Below, one piece after another: positions 12,032-48,832 of a DNA stretch of 64,000 bases. The DNA comes from Boletus sp. NGJ (lineage: Eukaryota; Basidiomycota; Agaricomycetes; Boletales; Boletaceae). The first letter of the stretch is position 1; each line of letters opens with the position of its first letter. A model generated the notes under the pieces. That model ran no database searches, was not told where the DNA came from, and was given only the letters and a program-made list of their open reading frames with translations. A program made the translations under genes and the position numbers. The DNA lies in NCBI GenBank assembly GCA_019096195.1, contig JAGTXK010000267.1, positions 1-64,000 of the forward strand, in the 5' to 3' direction.

Positions 12032-15000
12032 AAAGGTTCTACCCACCCTATAAGGTTATTTCTTTGTATAATGCTCCACCATAGCTATCTGCCAAACCCA
12101 AGACTTTTGGTGGCATACCGCCTCACCAACCTCATCTGACACTGAACTCTCTGACACTGATAAGAGAGGATCCCTCAGTGATCTTGAACTCTCATTCCAA
12201 CAACAACAGGACAACGCCCTTGACCTATCACAATGCCTAATGTCTGAACTTAACATTCCTCAAAACTGCACCCCTCCGTCATCAACCCCAATCACCGCCA
12301 CCCCATCCTTTTCCCTTCCACCACCACCTACAGCCAGCATAACCACTGTCAAACCCACTGAACTCCATATCACTGCCCCCAAACCTTTTACCAGATCCTT
12401 TGACACCTCAGTACAGTGGCTTAATGCTATTCAACTTTATCTTCACATCAATAAAAAGATCTATGACAATGATGACAAACAATTTGTCTTTGCCCTCTCA
12501 TACATGTGTAAAAGCTCCACCCTTACCTGTGCCAACACCTTTCATCAAAATGCGACCACTATTGCCAGCATAACCTTGGGAAGTTTCATTGATTTTATCA
12601 CTGCCTTTGAAAAGGTGTTCAAACACCGAGATAACACTGGGAACCTCATAGCTTGGCTTTCCACCAAATGCATGACGAAGAAGGCCAACAGCACCTACTC
12701 TCCCACCTTGATGAAGTATACTTTTGAGTTCCAAAATAATGCCTCCCTTGCCAAGATCACAGACCCCATCCTGATCAGATACTACTCTGCCAGTATCCCT
12801 ACTGGCCTCATGTGACAAGTAATGTCTATGGACATGGTCTTCATCACCATTGATGACTGGTACTTAAAAATCATTCACTTCCAGACTCAATGGGAATGAG
12901 CTGATGAAATTGCCAAGAGGTATCATAAACCCTCTGCCCACACCTATCACTCATTCTCCAACCCTACCCAGACCAAAACCTATGACCCTGATGCCATGGA
13001 TGTCAATACCATCTCCATCCCGAAAATGACCCCCACTGAATGAGAATAATGCTTTAAAAACAAACTTTGCTTTTATTGTCACCAACCCAGTCATACCACA
13101 GCCACCTGCCCCATGTTCTCCAACAATCACCTCAAAGAAAAGAAAATCTACATAGTCAATGAGGCAAAGACATGTCTGATAACAAAGTAATCAGGAGTAT
13201 TTCCCAGGGTCTTTAAGTAGGGAGACGAACCCAACACATGTTTCCCCTATACCTGATTGAAAATTTATAACTATAAACTCTATGCCCAAAGGAATCTCCA
13301 TCCCCACTTCTGTTTACATTCCCACTCAATCAGCTAAAGCCATTGACACCCATGCTCTTGTTAATAGCAGTGCAGAAATCTCCTGCATTGACTATCAATT
13401 TGTACAACACCATAACCTCCCCACCAAAAGACTAAAGAACCCTATCTGTGCCTGCAATGCTGACTTTTCCTTGAACAAAAATGGTGATATCAAGTTCATC
13501 TGTGATCCCTTCCTTAGAATAAAAGGAATCCTCATGCACATTATCCTCCATGTCTTTTCCTGCAAGAAGGAAAACATCATCCTTGGACAACTGTGATTGC
13601 AGCTTGCTAACCCCACAATTGATTGGCAAAACTGAACCCTCACCCTCAACACTGATGTCAACCAGTCTAATAACCTCTATCATCTCCATAATCAACCCCT
13701 CCCCTCACACATTGACATTCCAATTGACGATGAACCCTTAGAATATCCTGATCATGTTGATGTAAACCTTACCATGTGCCACCACCTCTGAGGTTTCCTG
13801 CAAAAGGAAACAGATGAACACCAATATCTCACCACCACCAACTGCTACCATGTCATGCATCGTATCATCCATGGGGGATGCCAACATGTAGCTCAATCAG
13901 TTATCTCAAGACTCACCATTGCCACAGAACTCGTCCAAACTGCAGAACTTGCTAAGCCAAAGAAAGCTCTCCCTCCAGAATACAGCAAATTCTCGTCCAT
14001 CTTCTTAAAGGAAGCAACTGACCATGTTCCTCCCTCTCAGCCCTATGACCATGCCATCAATCTGAAGGAATCATTTGTCCCCAAAATCAGGAAAGTATAT
14101 CCCCTCTCCCCCCCAGAAGTCACTGCCACTGATGCCTTCATAGAAGAAAACCTCACCTGTGGAAAAATCTGTCCTTCAAACTTCCCTCACACTTCCCCCT
14201 TCTTCTTTATGAAAAAGAAGAATGGTGACCTCCATCCTTGTCAGGACTATCGATACATCAACAAACATACCATTTGTGATGCATACCCACTTTCCCTCAT
14301 CTCCAATCTCATTGACAAACTCCGTGGTGCCACTACTTTCACCAAATTCAACATTCAATGACACTACAATAATGTCCATATCAAAGATGATGATCAATAA
14401 AAAGCTGCTTTCATCAGCCATAAAGGCCTCTATGAACCCACTGTCATGTTCTTCAGCCTCTGCAACTCCCTCACCATCTTCCAACATTTTATGAATAACT
14501 CCTTCCACGATATAATAGCAGAAGGGTGGCTCATTATCTATATGGATGATTTTCTAATCTACTCCCCTGACAATGTTCTACATGCTGAATATACCAAACA
14601 TGTACTTCAACACATGGTTGAACTCAACCTTCACCTCAAACTTGAAAAATGCAACTTCACTGTCACCAAAGTTGAATACTTCAGAATGATTGTCCAACCC
14701 AACTCCCTGTCCATGGATCCTGTCAAGCTTGATGGCATCACTAAATGGCCAGCCCCTACTTGTGTCACTGGTGTTTACTCATTCCTGGGCTTCACCAACT
14801 TCTACCAACAGTTCATTCTAGGATATTCAACCATAGCATGCCCCCTCATCGATCTTATCTGCCAAAACCACCCTTGGGATTGGACCCCAGCTTGCCAAGC
14901 CACCTTTGACCACCTAAGATGCCTCTTTACAGTGCAATCCATCCTCTGTCTTCCCAACTTCACTGTCCCCTTTGCTATTGCCACCAATGCTTCCAAATTC

Positions 15001-16743
15001 ACCTCCAATGCTATTCTCCTCCAAACCAACCCTAATGGCAACTGGCATCACTGTTTCTATCTCTCTGACTCATTCTCTCCTGTGGAACAGAATTACAACA
15101 TCTATGATCACAAATTACTCACCATCATATATGCTCTCAAGGCCTGGTGACATTATCTCCACGACTCCCTCTTTCCTATGCAAGTGTTCACTGATCACAA
15201 AAACCTCACCTACTTTCACACTCCCCAAAACCTTAATTGCTGCCAAGCCCACTGGATGTTAGACCTAGCAGACTTTGACCTGCAAATTATCCACATGCCT
15301 GGTCATCTCCTTGTGGGTCCTGACACTCTGTCCCACCACCCTGACCTCATCCCCACCAACACCTCAGAGAATGATGGCATCACCCTGCTACCCCCCTATC
15401 TTTTTGTCAACCTCATTGACCTCACACTCTCCTCTCACATTCACTCCACCTCTTGCTGGTGATCCTCTTGTTTTGCAACACCTTCAAGCCATTGATACCT
15501 CTGCCCCCACCTTCCTCTGCTCCTGCCTCTCCAAATGGCAATATGCTGACAGTATTCTCACCTACCACAGCCATGCCTACATTCCCCCAGACAGTGACCT
15601 CTGGAAATCCATCCTTTCCCATTGCTATGATCACTCCTCTGCCAGCCACCCTGGCTATCTCAAAACCTGCCAACTTGTCTCTGCCAACTTCTGGTGGCCT
15701 GGCCTGGCCTTCTACATTCACTCTTACATTGCTGGTTGCTCCTCCTGCCAACAATGTAAAGTCAATACCCACTCTGCCAGCCCCTCCTCTCACCCCTATT
15801 CACTTGTCTTCCTCCCTACCCTTCCATCAGATCTCCTACAATCTTATCACTGACCTTCCCCCCTTGGCTGGCTTCAACTCTTTCTTGGTCATGGTCAACC
15901 ATGGGTCTTACTAAGGGGGTGATCCTTTGCTCTATGAAGAAAACTGTCACTACTGAAGGGATCACTATCCTTTTCTTCCACAAAGTATACCGACATTATG
16001 GCCTCTATAATAAAATCATCTCTGACCATGGACCCCAATTCACCTCTGCATTCGCTAAAGAACTCAGTAAACTTCTAAATTATGAACTCTCCCTATCCAC
16101 TGCCTACCATCCCCAATCTGATGGGGAAACTGAATATGTTAACCAAGAGATTGAAACCTACCTCCACATCTTCTGTGGTAACAAACCTACCTCATGGTCC
16201 AAAAAGATCACACATGCAGAATTCACTCATAATCACTGACCCCACTCTGTCACCAGACAGTCACCATTTCCCTCCTCCTTGGATATGAACCACGCCCCTT
16301 ACCCACAGTTATCTCTAACATGGCTGTTCCCACAATAGAAGACCACATTAACCACCTCTCCACAGCTAGGAATAAAGCCCTAGCTGCCCACCAACTTGCC
16401 CACCAAAATAATCTCCCACTCAAAGAAAATATTCAAACCATTTGCCAAAGAAATCTTAAGCGATGCAATGCCAACCCAAAATTCTCTGCCAAAAGGAAAG
16501 GACCTTTCACTATTACTGATGTCCTATCCCCAATAGTTTACAAACTCCAACTTCCAAAGATGTGAAAGATCCACCCTGTGTTCTCACACATCTCTTCTCT
16601 TGCCCTGTTATGAGAATGCCATTTACAGCAAATACCACCCCACCCCACTATCCAACCTTATTGCTGGAGAAGAAGAATATGAAATAGATAAGGTTTTACA
16701 ATACTGTGGAACTCTGTCTTGCCGCTCCTTCCTGATCCGATGG
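12032..16743 (+). mobile_element. Gypsy element B, gag-pol (chromovirus)
   Basis: A near-complete but broken Ty3/gypsy chromovirus body. In order: a gag-like region (about 12240-13150) with a CCHC knuckle near 13070-13115, a protease-like region (about 13280-13600), reverse transcriptase (about 13990-14830, with YMDD near 14537-14550), RNase H (about 14880-15310), an integrase zinc domain (about 15640-15760, HPGYLKTCQ and CSSCQQCK), the integrase core (about 15840-16240, SDHGPQFTSAFAKEL and YHPQSDGETE) and the start of a chromodomain (about 16665-16743). Several breaks are present. The 5' LTR is 11473-12031. An LTR1 element inserted at 16744 splits the chromodomain. The 3' portion lies on the opposite strand at 20811-22198. 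Confidence 0.9.
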
Positions 16744-17629: not shown

Positions 17630-19837
17630 AAAGATCAAGGTTATAAACATCTAGTGCCACCTCGCCTAGAATTCCACAACCACCGGACATACATCTATCA
17701 GAGGATAGAGACTCGCTCTCACCACATGCTGCTATCTTAATCTCAACACTCTCTCATTCCGGATAGTGATTCAGAAGAAGAACCGGAACCAACCCCGACA
17801 CATGCAAACCTCTGCAGCGTCATTGGCCAAACATCTCTTCCTCAAGAAGAGTCCCAGAGTCATCTCACTTCCCAGACCTTCGAGACCATTCATCTCCCAT
17901 ATTCCATCTCGATTTCAAGAACTTCCAGGTGGTCTCCACTCGCGCTCCATGACCCCATTGGTAGATCCTACCCCAGAGCCACTCTTTGACGCGGAAGGTG
18001 GCGCCATCCTTGCTAGATCTAAGAGCAGCTGTAGCGAGAACCCAGCAAGACAGGACTCAGACAACAGAAGACATGCCCGAGATCAAAGCTGCCCTACCAG
18101 AGGAGTAGAGTGGAAACACTGAGGATGCCAGGCTGATGGCTCCTATCAATGGAAGCCTATCTTTGGGCTTCATGATGCCTATGGGGAGGACTAGAAGAAG
18201 ACCGTGCTGCTTAACAGGATGACCAAAGGAAGGGGGAAGGCTTTCTCAGAAGCCTGGCATATCAAGCTTGTCCAATTCCGCCACTGTACCAAATGCCACA
18301 GATAAACCTATGCTCCAAGATAAAGGAAAGTCTTCTGCACCATGTCCATGTTCTCTCCACACAACACCAAGGAAGCTGCACAGACAACGGCTCAGAACCC
18401 TTAGACAGAATGTCTGAGCAAAAAACAGCTTTGATCAATATCTAGCCGACTTCAGCCTCTATGCAGTCCATTCTGGCCTAACTGAACTGGATGCCATCCT
18501 GGAATACTTCTTGTGTGGGGTAAGCAGAGACATTGTGTCTCAACTTCAAAGCTCTGGAATCCTCAAGACTACCACCTCTATGGAGGACATCTACATGAAA
18601 GCTGTAGACATCGATAGCGGCATTAAATGTATCAGGTTGCTCTAAGAAGGGGGAGCATTCTACAGAGGACATGAAGGCCCAGGGAGACAGAGAGATCCAA
18701 ACACTATGGATGTGGACTGGATTACCCTCAACCCTGTCACTCATGCTTAACTCATGAGGGAGCAAAGATGCTTCATATGCCAGAAGCAAGGATGCTCCAC
18801 TCAGAACCATGAGGAGTACAAGCTGTTGAAGAAGGGGTACACCCAGAGACCACAGCAATCATAGAGAACATACACCAGGTTGGTAATGACAACCACCAAT
18901 GCACCCTCTGCTATTACACAGAAAGACTTGCTGGATAAATACTTGGATGATATCTCCAGGAGCAATAAGAGAGAAACGATTCTCAGAGTGCTTAAGACCT
19001 CCTTTGACATGGGGATGGATGAGCAGGGGATTCCATTGGAAAGGGAGACCCAGGAGACACTAGTGGCCGTAACCAACTGGCAAGTAGACATTGACGTCTG
19101 TGCCACAGATCCTGAACCCACATCTCATTTTGCTTCATTGACTGCTGAGTCACATTTTTAAAAGGAGGGCCTGGACCAATGCTAGCTCCCTCCTTCACAA
19201 TCACTTCTGTATTTATGTCCAGATCAAAGAGTAATTCTATTCACATTCCACTCTTGATCTGGAAACAGGATGGCACAATTGTTGGAACACATGCACTCAT
19301 TGACAGCAGTGCAACAGGATGCTTTATATCTAGAAGCATGGTAAGAAGGATGGGGTTGCCAGTAATACCGCTCAACACACCAGTACGAGCATGGAATGTG
19401 GATGGGACCCAAAACCAATCTGGGACCATCAAATACAAGACTGACGCAGTCTTGAACTACAGGGGGATGAGAGAGAAATGGGATCTTTTCATTCTCAACT
19501 GTAGCAAAGATGATCTCATCTTTGGACTTCCCTGGCTCCGGGCAGTGAACCTGGATATTGAGTGGAAGAGTGGATGGATAACAATAGTGCTGTCCAAGTA
19601 TAGGGATACCCATGAATATAATCTGGGGACCTTGGAACAACGATACCTGTTGAGGTATCTTAGATATGACAAAGAAGAATTCGTCAAAGGGGAACTTGAT
19701 GAACAGTTCCACCACTGGAGCCCCATACAATGGGCAGAATTCATGAGGGCCACAGGAGACATACCAGAGTATGCTCTCAGAAGAACCACCTTGTCCACTG
19801 TCATTGTGCAGCAAGCAGAGAGGTTGAAGGTACAGTA
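17630..19837 (+). mobile_element. Gypsy-type element E, gag-protease remnant
   Basis: Fossil internal region downstream of the LTR1 copy. A gag-like region (about 18430-18850, FDQYLADFSLYAVHSGLTEL) is followed by a CCHC-like knuckle (CFICQKQGCS, about 18770-18800). A retropepsin-like domain then lies around 19215-19570 (THALIDSSATG, LIFGLPWLR). Reverse transcriptase and integrase of this element are not present here. The sequence stops where repeat R begins at about 19838. The copy is broken in several places. Confidence 0.8.
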
Positions 19838-20810
19838 CTCTCGTAGTGTCTCATAGTATTCTCATAGTACTTTCATAGTGGTCATAGTATTCTCGTAGTA
19901 TCTCATAGTGTCTCATAGTGTCTTATAGTATTCTCATAGTACTTCTGTAGTGGTCATAGTGATGCCATAGTATACATAGTGCTTCCATAGTGGCTTAGCA
20001 ATCCTAATCCTAATCCTAATCCAATTTCAAGCCAATTCTAATTTCAAATTCAATCAAATATTAATTCTATTTATCCTAATCCTAATCCTAATCCTAATCC
20101 CAGTCCCAATTCCAATTCCAATATCCTAATCCTAACAATTTACAAAGTGAAGTGTTGACTTTATGTAATGAGTAGAAAAGGATAAAATTGAGAAACAAGA
20201 GGGTGTGGGAAAGTTTTTGAAGTCTGGCTTGTTTATATAAGAATGGTGGCACAAACATAGGCAAACAATGTCCGCTTTTTTAACACTGAGTGTGGGAAAA
20301 TGAACTTGAATATTTTTTTGAGTGTAGGTCTACACTTTTGGTACACTTTGTGACTACACTTTTACTACACTTTGGTGCGCATTTTTGGTACACTTTTGGT
20401 ACACTTTGTTTGCTACACTGTACTATACTCTGCTACACTTTTGTTTGCTTTTTTTACTACACTCTGTTTGCTACACTGTACTACACTCTTTCCTATACTT
20501 TTTGCACAACATTTGACTACACCTTTGACTACACTTTTTGTACACTTTTTAACCACACTTTTTGTATACTTTTGACTTAGGATTAGAATTAGAATTAGGA
20601 TTAGGATTAGTTTAAAATTACTACTGTGACTATGACTACTATGAATGTACTATGAATGCTATGAATATACTATGGATACTATGAATATACTTTCAATACT
20701 ATACATTATGAACACTATGAACACTATGAGTTATCTATAAAACTACTATGAGTACTATGAAACTACTATGGCACTATGAGCACTATGATGAAATCCTGTA
20801 TTTACTGATG
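19838..20810 (-). repeat. Repeat R, minus-oriented copy (foldback-like)
   Basis: The reverse-complement counterpart of the repeat at 6648-7510. It has CATAGT/ACTATG-type arms (19845-19990 and 20625-20800), a TACACTTTTG-type array (20330-20570), a (TAATCC)n-like stretch (20006-20140) and the same TATA-like interior box. The left neighbour is protease of element E on the plus strand. The right neighbour is LTR4 on the minus strand. It therefore sits exactly at the change of strand between two retroelements. No coding capacity was seen. Confidence 0.6.
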
Positions 20811-20873: not shown

Positions 20874-22198
20874 TTACCCCTGGCATATGGTCGAAGCACC
20901 ACTAAGACTCATTCAAGGCATTGGTAATCTCCTTGGGGAGATCCGGTGATGTTCCCAATGGCTTCATCACCATATATGTCATCACCATAGTCAATGACAT
21001 CAATAAGAGAGGGGGTGTGATGAGGCGGGACTCTTCTTGGGGTGTGACAAGTGGAGTGAGGGGAAAGGACTCAGTGAATCATTTGCAGGGAATGAGAGAA
21101 GTAATGAGAGGATAATGATGATGAAGGCGGCGATGGGGGGTTTAGACAACAACAAAGAGGGCAACGATAGGCGGCATGGCCCAGGGACCATCGTAGACAC
21201 GAGGGGTATTGGTAATTTGGACATTGGGCACATACATGATTGAGATGGTGACATTGGTAGCAAGTCTCCCCAAACCGGGGGTGGTTGGAGCTGAGAGGGG
21301 TACGGCCATCATTACCAGTCCAACTGGCCTCTATGTGTTGGATTAGATGTAACTTGTCAGAGTGAAGTGGGGTGGAGGAGGCAGACAGAGTGGACAAGGT
21401 GGATAGCAGGGAAATGGTGGGGGGTGGCATACAGTCTGCTATTTCCCTAAGGTATCGATCTAGGTCATTGAGTAGCTCTACTGCACCAAGTTGGTGCATG
21501 GCAGCGACGAGGTCTGCTTTTAACTTCTCATGGATGGCACAAAGATGAATCTGGGTGACTGAGAGGGTTGTGTTGGCAGAGGATCTGTTGGCGACTATGC
21601 CCAATTGGGCACATTGTAGATACTCTTTGTATAATGAATAGAGGGGGGAGGAGTAGTCTAGATGGGCCCCCAACATGAGGGCCATCTGTGGGTTTTCCAG
21701 ATTCCATGTGAGGCAGGTGACATCATTGAGGTCCGGGAAGTCATTCTGGAGTCTGTTGGCATATAGAGGGAGGTCTATGGTAAGGATGGGTCCAGGGGTA
21801 AACATTAGCAACATTGGAGTTGGTACAGGACAAGGAGTAGGTGAGTTGCAGGAAGGAGATGCCATAGGAGTAGGAGGGCAAGTGTTGTCATTGACAATGG
21901 TAGGAGGATGTGGTTCTGGTGAAGGGCGTGGAATAGAAGAAGGTGAAGAATACAGAGAAGATATCAATGATATAGAGTTTGGGGGGAATAAATTGTGAAT
22001 GATGACCAATTCAAAGGAGTCATTGACAAAGAGGGGGTTAGTAGTGTAGGAGGGGTTCATGTCAGAGTCGAAAAAGGGGGGATGTTTTTGGGAAATGCAT
22101 TAGGGTGGCGTTTCTTATAGTCTAGGAGGAGGGTCTGTGCATTTTTCAAGTCCCCTCAGGAACCCAGGAATCTTCTTCTGTGAAGTACCCTTTCCATC
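20874..22198 (-). mobile_element. Element B, displaced 3' part (chromodomain end and knuckle ORF)
   Basis: A minus-strand fossil. Next to the LTR1 copy it starts with the second part of a chromodomain (KGYFTEEDSWVPE, about 22150-22195). It continues as a long open stretch (22060-21071) that is proline-rich at first and then encodes a tandem Cys/His knuckle region (CYQCHHLNHVCAQC, about 21250-21300) and CCLNPPSPP. It ends at the LTR4 fragment. The knuckle region is homologous to that of element C. It is the natural continuation of 12032-16743 but lies in the opposite orientation. Broken. Confidence 0.75.
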
Positions 22199-41910: not shown

Positions 41911-44900
41911 ATGACGAAAACATACTTGATGAATAGTTTGGTGGAAAAAGTAACGATCGTCTTTGCTGCGTATGCACGAACAACTCACTTTGCCGAGGAT
42001 TTCTAGATGCAGTCCACCGACCAGGACTTCAGGTTGGCAATCACCCTCCGGACGCGTCAGAGTTGCTGATTATGAAGCTTCCAAACTTGAATCGCAGGTT
42101 CATGGGATTGAACGATCTAATGCTGGAGATCAAGCAAGACCCTAACAGCTTCTTCGGCGATGAGACCACTGAAAACAAAGTTATTCGCCAAGTGCTCAAA
42201 CTCGTCGAAGATACAATCTCCGAGGTCAAAAACCAGGCAGTCAAATGGTGTGTTTGACATCCGCGCTCAGTGTTGGCTTCATCACGTTAAGGATCGCGTC
42301 ACACGGTACTCAAGTCTCGGGCAACTCATCAAGATCATCAGAGAGAACCAAATGGAACTTGTCGTAGACAGTCTTATCAACTATTCGGTCGGAAAGGATG
42401 AGGAGCTACGAGATATATCTGGGCTTGGTTAGTACCTGCACATTGTGCGGAGTGAAAGGTTCTGACGCCACTCCATAGCCCTGAAGACGATTACATCGGA
42501 ACTACCCCCAGACGGCAAGATCGCTGGGAAGGCATGTGCGAAGCTTACGCCAAAGCTACTTGGACAAGTTTCTAGTGTAAGATGAGTTCACCTGGAGCAT
42601 TCTTCTTTGACAAACATTCAATCCAGCCCGACACCCCGCCTGAGACACTGCTAGAGACGTTGTCAACGCTTTCGATCCTTATCACCCGCTTTCCAGCTCA
42701 TTTCGCGGATCCTAATTTAAATCCACAGCCACTCAGCGCCATTGCCCCTCTTCTGACACATTCACGTCCTGCAGTCAGAAAACGCGCCATATCCACATTG
42801 TCTCAATTTGTTCCCGTCGCTCCACCAGAGCTGTTCTCGACTTTACTTCAGAATAATATCTTACCTTTTCTCGTCGCGAACGCCAACCTAGAGCAACAGA
42901 GGACAACAGTGAACCTCGTCGCTGCGATCTTCAGGCAGTCGCCGCAACAATTGACACCGTCGCTAGGAGACATCGTACCTGGCCTATTACAAGCAGTGAA
43001 ACGGGACGACGACGAGCTGAGGGAGGGATGCTTGCAGGTAGCGTACATGCGTCTAAGATCCTCTGGTTTTCGCTCACCTGTTGAAGGCTTTGGAGGCACT
43101 ACTCTTGAGGTCGCCTGGAGAGGCCACGCCGTTCGTTGATTCTATGGTACAAGTAGGGATCCAGTACATCAAGTATGACCCTGTAAGTTGATTTTCACTT
43201 GCATCGTGAAACAGTTTTTGATTTTCGCATAGAATTACGCTGACGAAGACGATGGCGAAGATGAGGAGATGCCAGATGCTGACGATGACGATGACGATGG
43301 AGAGCTTGATCAGTTCGTTAATGCATCATGGTGTTTATCTTGCATACTGATTGTTTCCAGGTACTCTGACGACGAAGATACCTCATACAAGATTCGTCGT
43401 TCTGCAACAAAATTACTATCAGCCGTGATTGTTACTCGTCCAGAATTGCTGGTCTCGTTGTACAAAAGTGTTTCTCCCGTCCTGATATCGCGATTTAACG
43501 ACAGAGAAGAAACGGTCCGCCTCGAGGTATGGTCCGCCTATGTCACGCTTCTGAATCAAACGAGTACGTACGGTGGCCTGGCGCAAAGTCTAGAAGGAGA
43601 CTCTGCTGTGCGCGGAAAGAGGAAGCGTGATAGCGAAGAGCGGATGGATGTCGAGGAGACCCCTTACACGCTTCTAAGGTCACAGGTTCCCGCGTTATCA
43701 AAGGCGCTACTTGGTCAGCTAAAACCGCCCAAGACCGCACCGGCAACCGTACAGGCTGGATTCCAGTTACTCTACGCTCTCCTTGCTGTGTTGCCAGGGT
43801 CGCTGTCCAGTCAAGTTGGACCAATTGTGGCGACGTCAAAAAGCATCCTTTCCCAGTCACCGACTACAACAACGTCGACGTTACATTTGACATGCCTCTC
43901 GTTCCTTGCCCTCTTCTTATCAACGCATGCACCTGCAGTGTTTAGCCCGTCACTCCCCATGCTTACGTCTGTCATTCTCAAGTCTCTCCGGGAGCGCCAC
44001 CCCCGAGTTGCATCTGAGGCATTTCGTGTCTTCTCTGCGCTAATAAATGCCACACGACCGGTGAAAAACAATGACTGGCTGGAACGGGTCTATGATGAAT
44101 CTTTGCAGCGACTCAGCACGCATGATACGGATGCGGAGGTGCGCAGCTGTGCAGAGGACTGCGTGGCCGACCTGTGGATATGCGCCACAGATATGATGAA
44201 GTCTAAAGGCGGAAGGGAGTGGCAGGCGATATGTCGCGCTACGGGCAATACTGCTGGTGCGGTCAAGGTCGTCACAAAGGTTGCTCGGGACGTGGATATC
44301 GGTGACCAATGGGTTAACTCCTGCTTGGAATGGATCATGGTCCTTCTGAAGAAGAGTGGGCGGGGTGGAAAGCCAGAAGTTTTCACTGCACTGGACACGT
44401 TGTTAAAAAGGTAAATTCCTCCTCTGGCCTTCCTGACGGCTCAATCAACGCTCCCAATAGATATCAATCTGGAATACCTACTGATCTCCCACCTTCCCTC
44501 ATTCCCCAGATCAAGCTTTACATCGGCACCTCAGATATTTCCCTGCTCTCGCAAGCGCTTTCCATTCTCGCTCTTCTCCTAGAATTGTCACCTCCTGTCA
44601 CGTTCCCGGTAGTTGAGAAGGAATTGCTAGCTGATATTTATCAGATCGCTCATTCACCACTGGTTTCTGGTGCGGCTCTCGACTCTTTGCTTGCATTCTT
44701 CTCGGCCTTGGTTCAAGCGGACAGGCAAATTGCGACACATGTGATTCCCAACCTTGTCATCGGCGTCGAAAAGTCTCCAAAGACGGAGGTAAATCCAATC
44801 AACGCCGCAAAGTGCGTTGGGCAGGTCGTCAGGAGTGCTCAAGGTGTTGCTGCTGGTACGATTGCAGAGTACTCCAAGTTTGTCAAGGTACGGCTCTTTG

Positions 44901-45308
44901 TCTTGTCTCATTTGCGACCGTCCTAATGTTCGAACGAATAGAAATCATCGAAAGCCAAGTCATCGACTGTTGTCCTTAGCTTGTTGATCTTGGGAGAGCT
45001 AGGTCGCTTTATGTAAGTATTCGTGTTGTTTGGAGGATGCGTTACCTCATACTGCTCAGCGACATGTCTATCCAACACGATGTATTCGACAATGCTATCG
45101 ACCACTTTTCTGCAGAGGAGGAAGAGATCAGGACTGCCGCTGCATTTGCAGCTGGTGAGTGCAACATCGTCGCAGTTAGAGTCTTTCACTGAATTGCGAC
45201 CAAGGAAACATCGCGATCGGGAACCTACACCTGTTCCTCCCTGCTATCCTCAAAGTTGCGGAGCAGGACCCATCCAAGCGGCTGCTATCTCTTCATGCGC
45301 TCAAAGAG
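41911..45308 (+). CDS. CAND1: CAND1 (TIP120), N-terminal three quarters, 5' part of a chimeric gene
   Basis: A HEAT-repeat exchange factor that binds unneddylated cullin-RING scaffolds. Exons: 41911-41949, 42007-42032, 42098-42247, 42315-42427, 42479-42576, 42627-43037, 43087-43182, 43233-43312, 43361-44410, 44461-44887, 44942-45012, 45060-45154 and 45205-45308. They give 920 residues in phase 0. Family text includes MGLNDLMLEIKQDPNSF, VKNQAVKCLGQLIK, an acidic loop (DADDDDDDGELDQ), YKIRRSATKLLSAVI, VLKSLRERHP-like HEAT helices and RLLSLHALKE. CAND1 is normally about 1200-1250 residues. The last about 300-350, which wrap the cullin N-terminal Skp1/adaptor side, are absent. After the donor at 45309 the reading continues in frame into proline dehydrogenase (next entry). 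All introns are ordinary GT-AG. Confidence 0.9.
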
Positions 45309-45354
45309 GTTGGTGATGCCTGAGCTGCAGCCAATGGTTTATGTAACATGTCAG

Positions 45355-46262
45355 GCCTATTTGAGAAGGTCAGATCACGTCCTCCGTTGAAATCGTCATC
45401 TCTGCGCCGCACGATGGCTCCCCTAATTCAACTGACTAACTTATCGATGCTAGAACGCCCACCCATCTCGCACGCTCGCTTGCACTCGCACGGCAGAACA
45501 ATTACGCACTGGGTGTTAAACTCGTGAGGGGTGCGTATCACCCCCACGAGCTTGTAGCACACTCTACAGCAGCTTCCTCGAGCGCATCAGGCTCTATCGC
45601 AGTTTCACCTGACCCACACCCGCCGGTTCATCCTACTAAACCAGACACGGACGCCTGTTACAATGAATGTGCAGCCCTCCTTGTGCGAGCCGTCGCCGAT
45701 GATGTAAAATCGTCTGCAGGTCGTACACCACGCATTGGTGTCCTCTTTGGTACTCACAACTGGATTTCGTCCGAACTGATACTTGGGGAATTGGTCAAGA
45801 ACGGTCTGGCTCACGAAAACGACCCGAACACCGACGGAAGTCACAATGGAACCCTCACTGTCTCATCTGACGTTGCAGAGAGGCTTACCTTTGGTCAGTT
45901 GTACGGTGCGTCCTACCTCTCATCGCTTTGTAGTTCTTCCCTCTCACATTCTTTCATTGCAGGCATGTCGGATTCGCTCACCAACTACCTCGTTGGGCGT
46001 ATAAAGAGTACCACACCGTGCACTATCAAGTACGTTCCCTACGGGGCACTTGTGGAGGTGTGTATCCGTTTTGCTTCAAGTCTTTTTACGCACGTTTAGC
46101 AAGGGATGCACTGAAACTAACTGTGCACCATAGGTGATGCCATACATTTCCCGCCGTGCTATCGAGAACAAATCCATGCTTGGAAACGGTGGTGCGGTGC
46201 GGGAGAGGAAGGAAGCTGCGAGGTTAATATGGAGGAGGGTATTCGGCGGTTTTGGATTATGA
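45355..46262 (+). CDS. Proline dehydrogenase, C-terminal half, 3' part of the chimeric gene
   Basis: Exons 45355-45368, 45454-45905, 45963-46057 and 46134-46262 encode 229 residues continuing CAND1 in phase. The text is the second half of the mitochondrial FAD-dependent proline dehydrogenase barrel: AYLRRTPTHLARSLALARQN, VKLVRGAYHPHE, a Ser/His/Pro-rich insert, KPDTDACYNECAALL, IGVLFGTHNW, FGQLYGMSDSLTNYL, IKYVPYGALVEVMPY, and ISRRAIENKSML, which has the paired arginines that hold proline. The enzyme's N-terminal half (mitochondrial targeting, first barrel strands) is missing, so catalysis is not expected from this piece alone. There is no independent start or promoter-like region between 45308 and 45355, only a 46-nt intron. 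Either the locus is a true fusion (1149 residues in total) or the assembly joins two loci here. Confidence 0.88.
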
Positions 46263-46832
46263 ATCGTCTGCGAATGGATGCTTTTGACGTGGAAGGGGGT
46301 TCAAAGTATCAATATAGGGTTGGATGGATAGTTTTTTTCGCGGCTATCTGGGGTTGGAAGATTTACTTTCGTTAGCATTTTTTTTACAGCTACATTGGCA
46401 CGCTACTTATACCGATACACAGAGATATCCCGGAGTCGTGGTTTCGCGGACCCTACGTAGCACCCGGTTACAGGAACATATAACTTACTATGAATGACCA
46501 TCCTGGTGGCCCTAGTATGCACAGGTACTTACGATTGTCAGGCTTTTTTTTTCTCGTGAATCGATAATTTCTGCTTCATACCACGCGATACGTCGCCTGT
46601 CCCTCTGGGACGTCGGAAATTACAATCTATTAGCAGTGGGAATGGGTTATTTGACTGATCGTCGCGGAGGTAGGATCAACCTGAAATGGACTCCAAGCTC
46701 CAGCTTCCAAGTCCAAGTATGGTTACAACGTACATAATTTTACCGTACAGGTCTATTCATCTCGTGCATGATCGATCCAACGGACTGATGGACCGATATC
46801 CGGTCGTTCTAAAGGAGGCGAAAATAAGTTAC
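46263..46832. other. Intergenic between convergent genes
   Basis: Presumed 3' UTRs and terminators of the chimeric gene and the MFS gene, with T-rich runs near 46375-46390 and 46540-46550. No coding evidence. The open frame at 46686-46961 mostly overlaps the MFS 3' end. Confidence 0.45.
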
Positions 46833-48832
46833 CTAGGGAGCTGTTACGGAAACTGCTTGCTTCCTATGTTGCAGAATAAGTTGCGTAGTCGCAAACATGG
46901 CAGTGCCTGCGACACTAACACACTGCGACAGACAAAAAAAGGGTTAGCTGTGGGACAATAGCAGGGTATTCGAATCAGGAACTCACCCCGCACAGCACCG
47001 CGGGCTTCCACCAGCTGTAGTCTGATCCTAAAAGCGCGCCTGCCAGAGGAGTCCCTATTTCACACGTTCGAGGTCATGACTTTGAAGACATTGGCTCTCG
47101 AAGAACTCACCTATCAAGCTTCCGAGTCCTGTAACATCACGAGTGAGAAATGGAACGTGAAAGCTTTTGTTACGCACCTGCCATGAAAAGCGAGATGCCC
47201 ATACGTGCCCTTTCGAGAGGATAAAAAGAAATAAGAGGTTATGGTCCTCGGAGGGCCGATACGAAAACTCACCCAAGCTGAGACAAGTCGTGTGTCAGGC
47301 TTTCGATAAGGGGAGCAGAAAGAGCCACGTCTGGAATCGCTTATTATCACAATGTAATAAAAAAAGAAGAGAGGGTTACTGACAAAGTCCTGAGAAATAC
47401 CCGAAGAAGAGCCCTATAGTCGCGGAACCTGCGCGAGTGGAGAGGGTCATCATCGCAAAGGTGACGATGCCGGAACTTAGAGTTGCTGTAATGACTGCAT
47501 TCGAGATGCCACAGCATGCGGCAATGAAACCAGCGGTGGCACGGCCAACGAAATTGCCTCCGTTGAGGATAACAATCTGAGATTGAGAGTTGATATGAAG
47601 CATTCATAACAAGAATCCGACCGAACCGTGTAGAAAGAAAACTCTTTGCCCAGCCCATGCATGGACGAATCGAGCTGAATGTAGAACATGGGAAAAAACG
47701 CTCCAGCGCCATAGAGAAGAAACCTAGAAAAGGGATGAATATTGCTAATCAGATGGTGTCGTTCGTGGCCTACCCGATAGAAGCAAATATGTATGGATAG
47801 TCGGCGGAAGATCTCCTCAGTAGTTGAGAATAGGGCATCTGTGACTTCTCCGAATACAACGACCTAGTTCGCATAAGGGCACAACCAGTGATTAACAACA
47901 CGGTATTTGCTGCAGCGGTGATGCGGATGCTGTTGGCGAAGCCGAGATTCCCATTCAGAAGGTTGTTTAGCAAAATGGTGTATGCTACGGCGCCTGCTGG
48001 CGTCCCACCAGCGACTATGGACATTGCGATGGCGCGCCTTTTCTTGAAGTGATGAGACACGATAGCAAGCGAGGGTACGTAGCTCATGCTTGTAGCTAAT
48101 CCGAAGCCCAAGCCATGGCACAGAAAAATCTAAAAGAGTCGTGTTATATTCGTGGCATTACCACGATGAATACACACCTGATAAAAATGATTCTGTTGTG
48201 TTAAAGAGAGCATGAAGAGGCATATTGTTTGTAGGCTGCAACCGACAATCACCAACCAGTGGCTGATGGATACGTGCAATATGTGAATATGTGAGGCAGA
48301 GGGGGGGAAATGGACGTACAAGTATCCCCTGTCATAAAGCCGTCCAAAAAAGAGTCCTCCAGATAATATCAAGAATGCATTCGTGCTTCCTATCCAACTA
48401 CAACGTGATGTCATCAGAGGAGCAAACGTGTTATGGAAGAGCAAACTTGCGAAATTGTAGACGACGAGACACTAGTCAAGTAATGCTGAGAGTAAAAGTC
48501 TACATAGGAATGAGTGACAGTGTAGTATTAGAAGGATAAGAGACTTGCCCTGAAAGACGCCGAACGCGTTTACAAATCTGCGGACACTGAGAGTGAGGAT
48601 CGCTCAACTCGCAGATTAGACCTCCTACCCGAAGCCACCGACTTGGATCAAAAAGCTTGGAGGAACGCGTCAGTTGACAAGCCGTGATGTTGGAAACATA
48701 CACTTACGCGCCGAATACGGTTAACCAGGCAGTCAGACCACCGTCTGGAAAATATGAGACAATATCGGGTACATCAGACCCGTCGGGATTATGTTCGTCC
48801 ATGACACATGTTTCCTCGCTAGGTGTATTCAT
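46833..48832 (-). CDS. MFS transporter, monocarboxylate-porter (MCT) type
   Basis: A plasma-membrane 12-helix permease of the MCT/SLC16-like group found in many fungi. The start MNTPSEETC is at 48832, the only ATG preceding the conserved FPDGGLTAWLTVFGA signature. A 27-nt microexon (48655-48629) encodes FLIQVGGFG. Next come FVNAFGVFQ, WIGSTNAFLILSGGLFFGRLYDRGY and GLGFGLATSMSYVPSLAIVSHHF, the last with the loop FKKRRAIAMSIVAGGTPAG. Then FLLYGAGAFFPMFYIQLDS, NGGNFVGRATAGFIAACCG and LFFGYFSGL. Final small exons hold APLIESLTHDLSQLG, GSLIGE, GTPLAGALLGSDYSWWKPAVLCG and a tail ending SVTAP-stop at 46833. Eight or more introns are required and I did not fix every boundary. The substrate is unknown. 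Confidence 0.85.

Follow-up and report, generated by a model that had tools for sequence, protein, structure and literature searches.

In Boletus sp. NGJ, a homologue of CAND1 is followed on the same strand by the C-terminal half of a proline dehydrogenase (PRODH) gene. Both lie in a 64,000-nt stretch, here called the window, at positions 1 to 64,000 of contig JAGTXK010000267.1. The original prediction read them as an in-frame CAND1::PRODH chimera joined inside a 46-nt intron. The genes are as follows:

41911-45308, + strand: CAND1 homologue of 13 exons, C-terminal quarter missing (exon model, alignment to human CAND1, Pfam TPR_CAND1 and HEAT)
45331-45368, + strand: PRODH coding sequence PMVYVTCQAYLRR, the first 24 nt of which lie within the claimed intron (Pfam, PutA alignment, four-sequence alignment, ERD5 match)
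45454-45905, + strand: PRODH exon with KLVRGAY and GTHNW (exon model, Pfam; its best part was also matched in the genome-wide Pro_dh and ERD5 searches)
45963-46057, + strand: PRODH exon (exon model, Pfam)
46134-46262, + strand: last PRODH exon, with SRRAIENK and the stop at 46260-46262 (exon model, protein match)

Genes at the locus

Both gene identities are supported by alignments to chains of solved structures and by Pfam matches. The 13 CAND1 exons that had been proposed join into exactly 920 codons, free of stops, and the last exon closes in phase 0 at 45308. The product of these exons, together with the next four codons, matched residues 5-916 of the 1230 residues of human CAND1 (PDB 1u6g_C, E 2.5e-141). 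The N-terminal and central HEAT region, including the acidic loop, is present by alignment and Pfam, and Pfam matched HEAT and TPR_CAND1 on this part. The homologue differs from human CAND1 in the C-terminal region with the TIP120 family, which is absent at the locus; the best C-terminal match in the window had an E-value of 1.6. The end of CAND1 is lost here, as the original prediction had claimed, although the lost share is about a quarter and not the last third. According to one study (PMC6581859), the TIP120-bearing C-terminal domain of CAND1 has a beta-hairpin interfering with the binding site of Skp1.

In the claimed splice form, four PRODH exons contribute 230 codons including the stop at 46262, which with CAND1 makes 1150; the exon model reproduced this reading frame and total. 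The C-terminal half of the Pro_dh domain is present with its conserved motifs (Pfam positions 113-272 of 278). KLVRGAY, HN and RR..EN are conserved in Pfam and in an alignment to comparison sequences, and this half is shared with the eukaryotic enzymes PUT1, ERD5 and slgA. In contrast to those enzymes, the N-terminal half is missing at this locus, in line with the original prediction: profile and protein searches gave no convincing match to it in the window.

No comparable break was seen in the neighbours of the joint, which were covered in part, by Pfam on some frames and by eye on the rest. Pfam matched a Vps4-like ATPase (MIT and AAA), ribosomal protein L19e, an MBOAT enzyme, an upstream HODM-like frame (profile 149-273 of 273) and two Vps35 frames (profile 253-322 and 324-489 of 726). 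On the minus strand, open frames at 46.9-48.9 kb were judged by eye to belong to an MFS-like transporter. Contig C77 comprises 187,311 bases. Downstream of both genes, about 200 bases at 46719-46935 are 73% identical to C62:55047-55243. The first 22 kb of the window contain gag/pol-like LTR retrotransposon frames, identified by eye at 38-526, 12072-16239, 19149-19856 and 21071-22099; the one frame scanned (12072-12812) matched no Pfam family. A strong GC skew is found at 12-17 kb.

The joint and the claimed intron

The following features were assigned at the joint:

45309-45354, + strand: claimed 46-nt intron with existing GT..AG ends, a composite of CAND1 and PRODH sequence
45309-45311, + strand: GTT, an extra codon (V) in the CAND1 frame past the claimed donor, aligned with CAND1 (query residue 921)
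45312-45330, no strand: interval probably holding the breakpoint (similarity to CAND1 extends to 45311, that to PRODH starts at 45328-45334)
45321-45323, + strand: TGA that closes the CAND1 frame if unspliced (KEVGDA, then stop)

The claimed splice sites hold in so far as the GT and AG ends and the in-frame exons exist; the interval between them, however, consists of CAND1 and PRODH sequence. On the left, CAND1 homology passes the donor, the GT of which forms the first two bases of the Val codon at 45309-45311, although this lone residue may match by chance. On the right, the PRODH frame remains open ahead of the claimed acceptor, with ELQPMVYVTCQ before that site and AYLRR after it, so that the PRODH coding stretch PMVYVTCQ (45331-45354) falls inside the claimed intron.

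Several comparisons bear on this stretch. When it was added to the PRODH query, the score against Pfam Pro_dh rose by 12.8 bits, from 111.5 to 124.3. The match then began at profile position 113 and no longer at 120, corresponding to residue 9 in the extended frame (45334). For a solved bacterial PutA (4nm9), a weak alignment sets in at 45331 (E 4.7e-4 with a 244-residue query and 0.045 with 61 residues); in the other PutA chains shown, it starts only at the T of VTCQ. Local tblastn placed residues 309-327 of Arabidopsis ERD5 on 45328-45384 (53% identity); this match is short and linked to that of the following exon. In the same run, slgA and PUT1 gave no match in the PRODH frame upstream of 45464. 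Further, the T (45346-45348) and Q (45352-45354) of VTCQ are invariant in all four sequences of an alignment of this locus with ERD5, slgA and PUT1 (plant, insect and yeast, respectively). Since this Q is coded at 45352-45354, the CAG of the claimed acceptor is a conserved Gln codon.

The joint was therefore not found to lie inside an intron, because the stretch is PRODH coding sequence in the PRODH frame and CAND1 homology extends past the donor. The breakpoint probably falls in about 45312-45330 and joins coding sequence to coding sequence in differing frames. With the two frames not matching at such a joint, the proposed in-frame chimera is not supported. As the joint is out of frame, its direct product would be CAND1 ending four residues after exon 13, with half of PRODH untranslated in frame. 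The CTGCAG at 45325-45330 may represent a true acceptor of a PRODH intron; the final bases of that intron would then form the right side of the joint.

No repeat of at least 12 nt covers 45312-45330 among the 12-13-nt matches found in 44000-47500; the nearest to the joint is an imperfect 12-nt match (44610/45358). No N gaps were found in the window or in 12 fetched 10-kb stretches, and thus a gap-closing error is not visible.

Search for the missing parts in the assembly

The CAND1-PRODH locus occurs once in the assembly (32.8 Mb, 141 contigs); the other match in this comparison was the C62 stretch described above. A search of the assembly for TIP120 (PF08623), the C-terminal family of CAND1, gave no candidate. 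Internal controls were added because none of the control genomes matched this profile either: TPR_CAND1 was found at this locus, and cullins were found at three multi-exon loci (12 of 13 matches). Full-length Arabidopsis CAND1 gave six matches in the assembly. Five of them are in this gene, at E-values from 2.4e-33 to 1.34; the last exon ahead of the joint was matched at 0.145. Its residues 912-1217 had no match in the assembly in that search, and its C-terminal 310 residues alone had none up to E 10. On these searches, we regard the end of CAND1 as absent from the assembly. Outside the window, the full-length plant protein has a weak match at C3:343706-343900 (E 0.0016, query residues 417-480), which is not C-terminal.

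Pro_dh (PF01619) was matched at one place only in the assembly, at this locus (positions 124-212 of 278). The missing half has few well-matching positions for eukaryotes, and yeast PUT1 matches the profile only from position 66. As a whole-genome query, ERD5 found the window locus only (E 2.2e-4). Yeast PUT1 and Drosophila slgA, both weak queries, gave zero matches across the genome; as not even the copy in the window was recovered, these two queries are uninformative for the N-terminal half of PRODH. Because the whole-genome protein searches were weak, that half cannot be called absent. Of the intact ends for which a search had been suggested originally, the C-terminal quarter of CAND1 was looked for in the assembly and not found.

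Two of the three cullin loci contain stops. At C81:1469237-1470902, two TAG and two TAA codons occur in the largest matched stretch and one TAG in another, and at C58:118877-121165 one TAG occurs in each of two matched stretches; these are perhaps introns read through. For 5.8S rRNA, one match was reported in the assembly (C81:1729574-1729740, 106.8 bits; 39 of 947 first-look candidates scored). This lone match looks diverged, so the assembly may lack the normal rDNA array.

Origin of the joint and its meaning

The reading that we favour, with a probability of about 0.78, is that one block comprising the 3' quarter of CAND1, a spacer and the 5' half of PRODH was lost by misassembly or by a recent deletion, and that the locus does not encode a working chimera. 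The starting state would have been two tandem plus-strand genes, CAND1 and then PRODH, from which a single contiguous block was lost. Either the assembly would lack this block because of a collapse or misjoin, or the DNA that was sequenced would have lost it in a recent deletion, possibly in one nucleus of a dikaryon. The 46-nt in-frame intron would then be fortuitous, and the 46 nt would presumably not be spliced. A one-block loss would account at once for the order and strand of the genes, for a joint that runs from coding sequence to coding sequence and out of frame, and for the missing end of CAND1. The fallback reading of the original prediction, an assembly collapse or misjoin, is supported, apart from its placement at an intron.

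CAND1 and PRODH are both widely conserved in fungi, and for this reason we lean slightly towards misassembly over a real deletion. The 920 + 237 codons of the model need no stop or frameshift and thus carry no sign of age; the exon model was chosen to be open, and for CAND1 the alignment supports it from end to end. This suits a recent or artefactual loss more than an old event.

A chimeric misjoin of two non-neighbouring loci, with their other ends lost from the assembly, would account equally well for the coding-to-coding joint and is consistent with the failure to find the CAND1 end. It demands the loss of two ends as against one block, and we consider it unlikely. A true expressed fusion, in which a deletion was rescued by a 46-nt cryptic intron to give a 1149-residue protein, is very unlikely. 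The splice does keep the frame, both remnants are free of stops and the claimed donor, GTTGGT, resembles the GTTGGC donor of intron 2. However, splicing would remove the conserved PMVYVTCQ from a PRODH that already lacks its N-terminal half, and a match in frame is expected by chance. For this estimate, 4000 joints were simulated, each between a random position in the longer exons of CAND1 and one in the longer exons of PRODH. In 2387 of them, at least one nearby GT..AG of 40-80 nt restored the PRODH frame without a stop, in a test permissive on splice strength, and 1285 were directly in frame and open. An in-frame GT..AG solution is therefore not evidence for a selected fusion. The 46 nt also contain no YTRAY branch motif, which carries little weight since the model has 15 other introns and 5 of these are likewise without one. 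Fusions that have evolved as such would place the joint at an intron or domain border in a compatible frame, and here it lies inside coding sequence. A literature search linking CAND1 or TIP120 to proline dehydrogenase or proline oxidase returned nothing relevant by title.

A division of CAND1 into two genes was also considered. According to PMC6581859, CAND1 is usually one gene, whereas aspergilli have separate candA-N and candA-C genes, both parts of which are kept and form a complex; the authors state that this rearrangement had been undescribed in other fungi. The likeness to Boletus sp. NGJ is that a fungal CAND1 gene was broken by rearrangement. In Aspergillus, both parts are there and the N-terminal part has 313 residues, whereas here the second part was not found and the break lies near human residue 916. 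With no TIP120 match and no match to the C-terminal part of plant CAND1 in the assembly, an Aspergillus-style split with the C-terminal part as a separate gene elsewhere was set aside as highly improbable. We give just as little credence to a deletion that became fixed in this fungus and produced a transcribed CAND1-PRODH gene, with PRODH coding sequence recruited as a new intron; such a fungus would have a truncated cullin exchange factor and no complete PRODH.

As it is, the locus is of interest mainly as a caution for the reading of gene fusions. What looked like a neat intron-to-intron fusion turned out to be a coding-to-coding breakpoint when the 'intron' was read in the frame of the downstream gene. 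Moreover, over half of the random joints between CAND1 and PRODH permit an in-frame splice. If the deletion were real and fixed, the locus would represent a natural C-terminal truncation of CAND1 and would test the need for the Skp1-displacing end of this protein in fungi.
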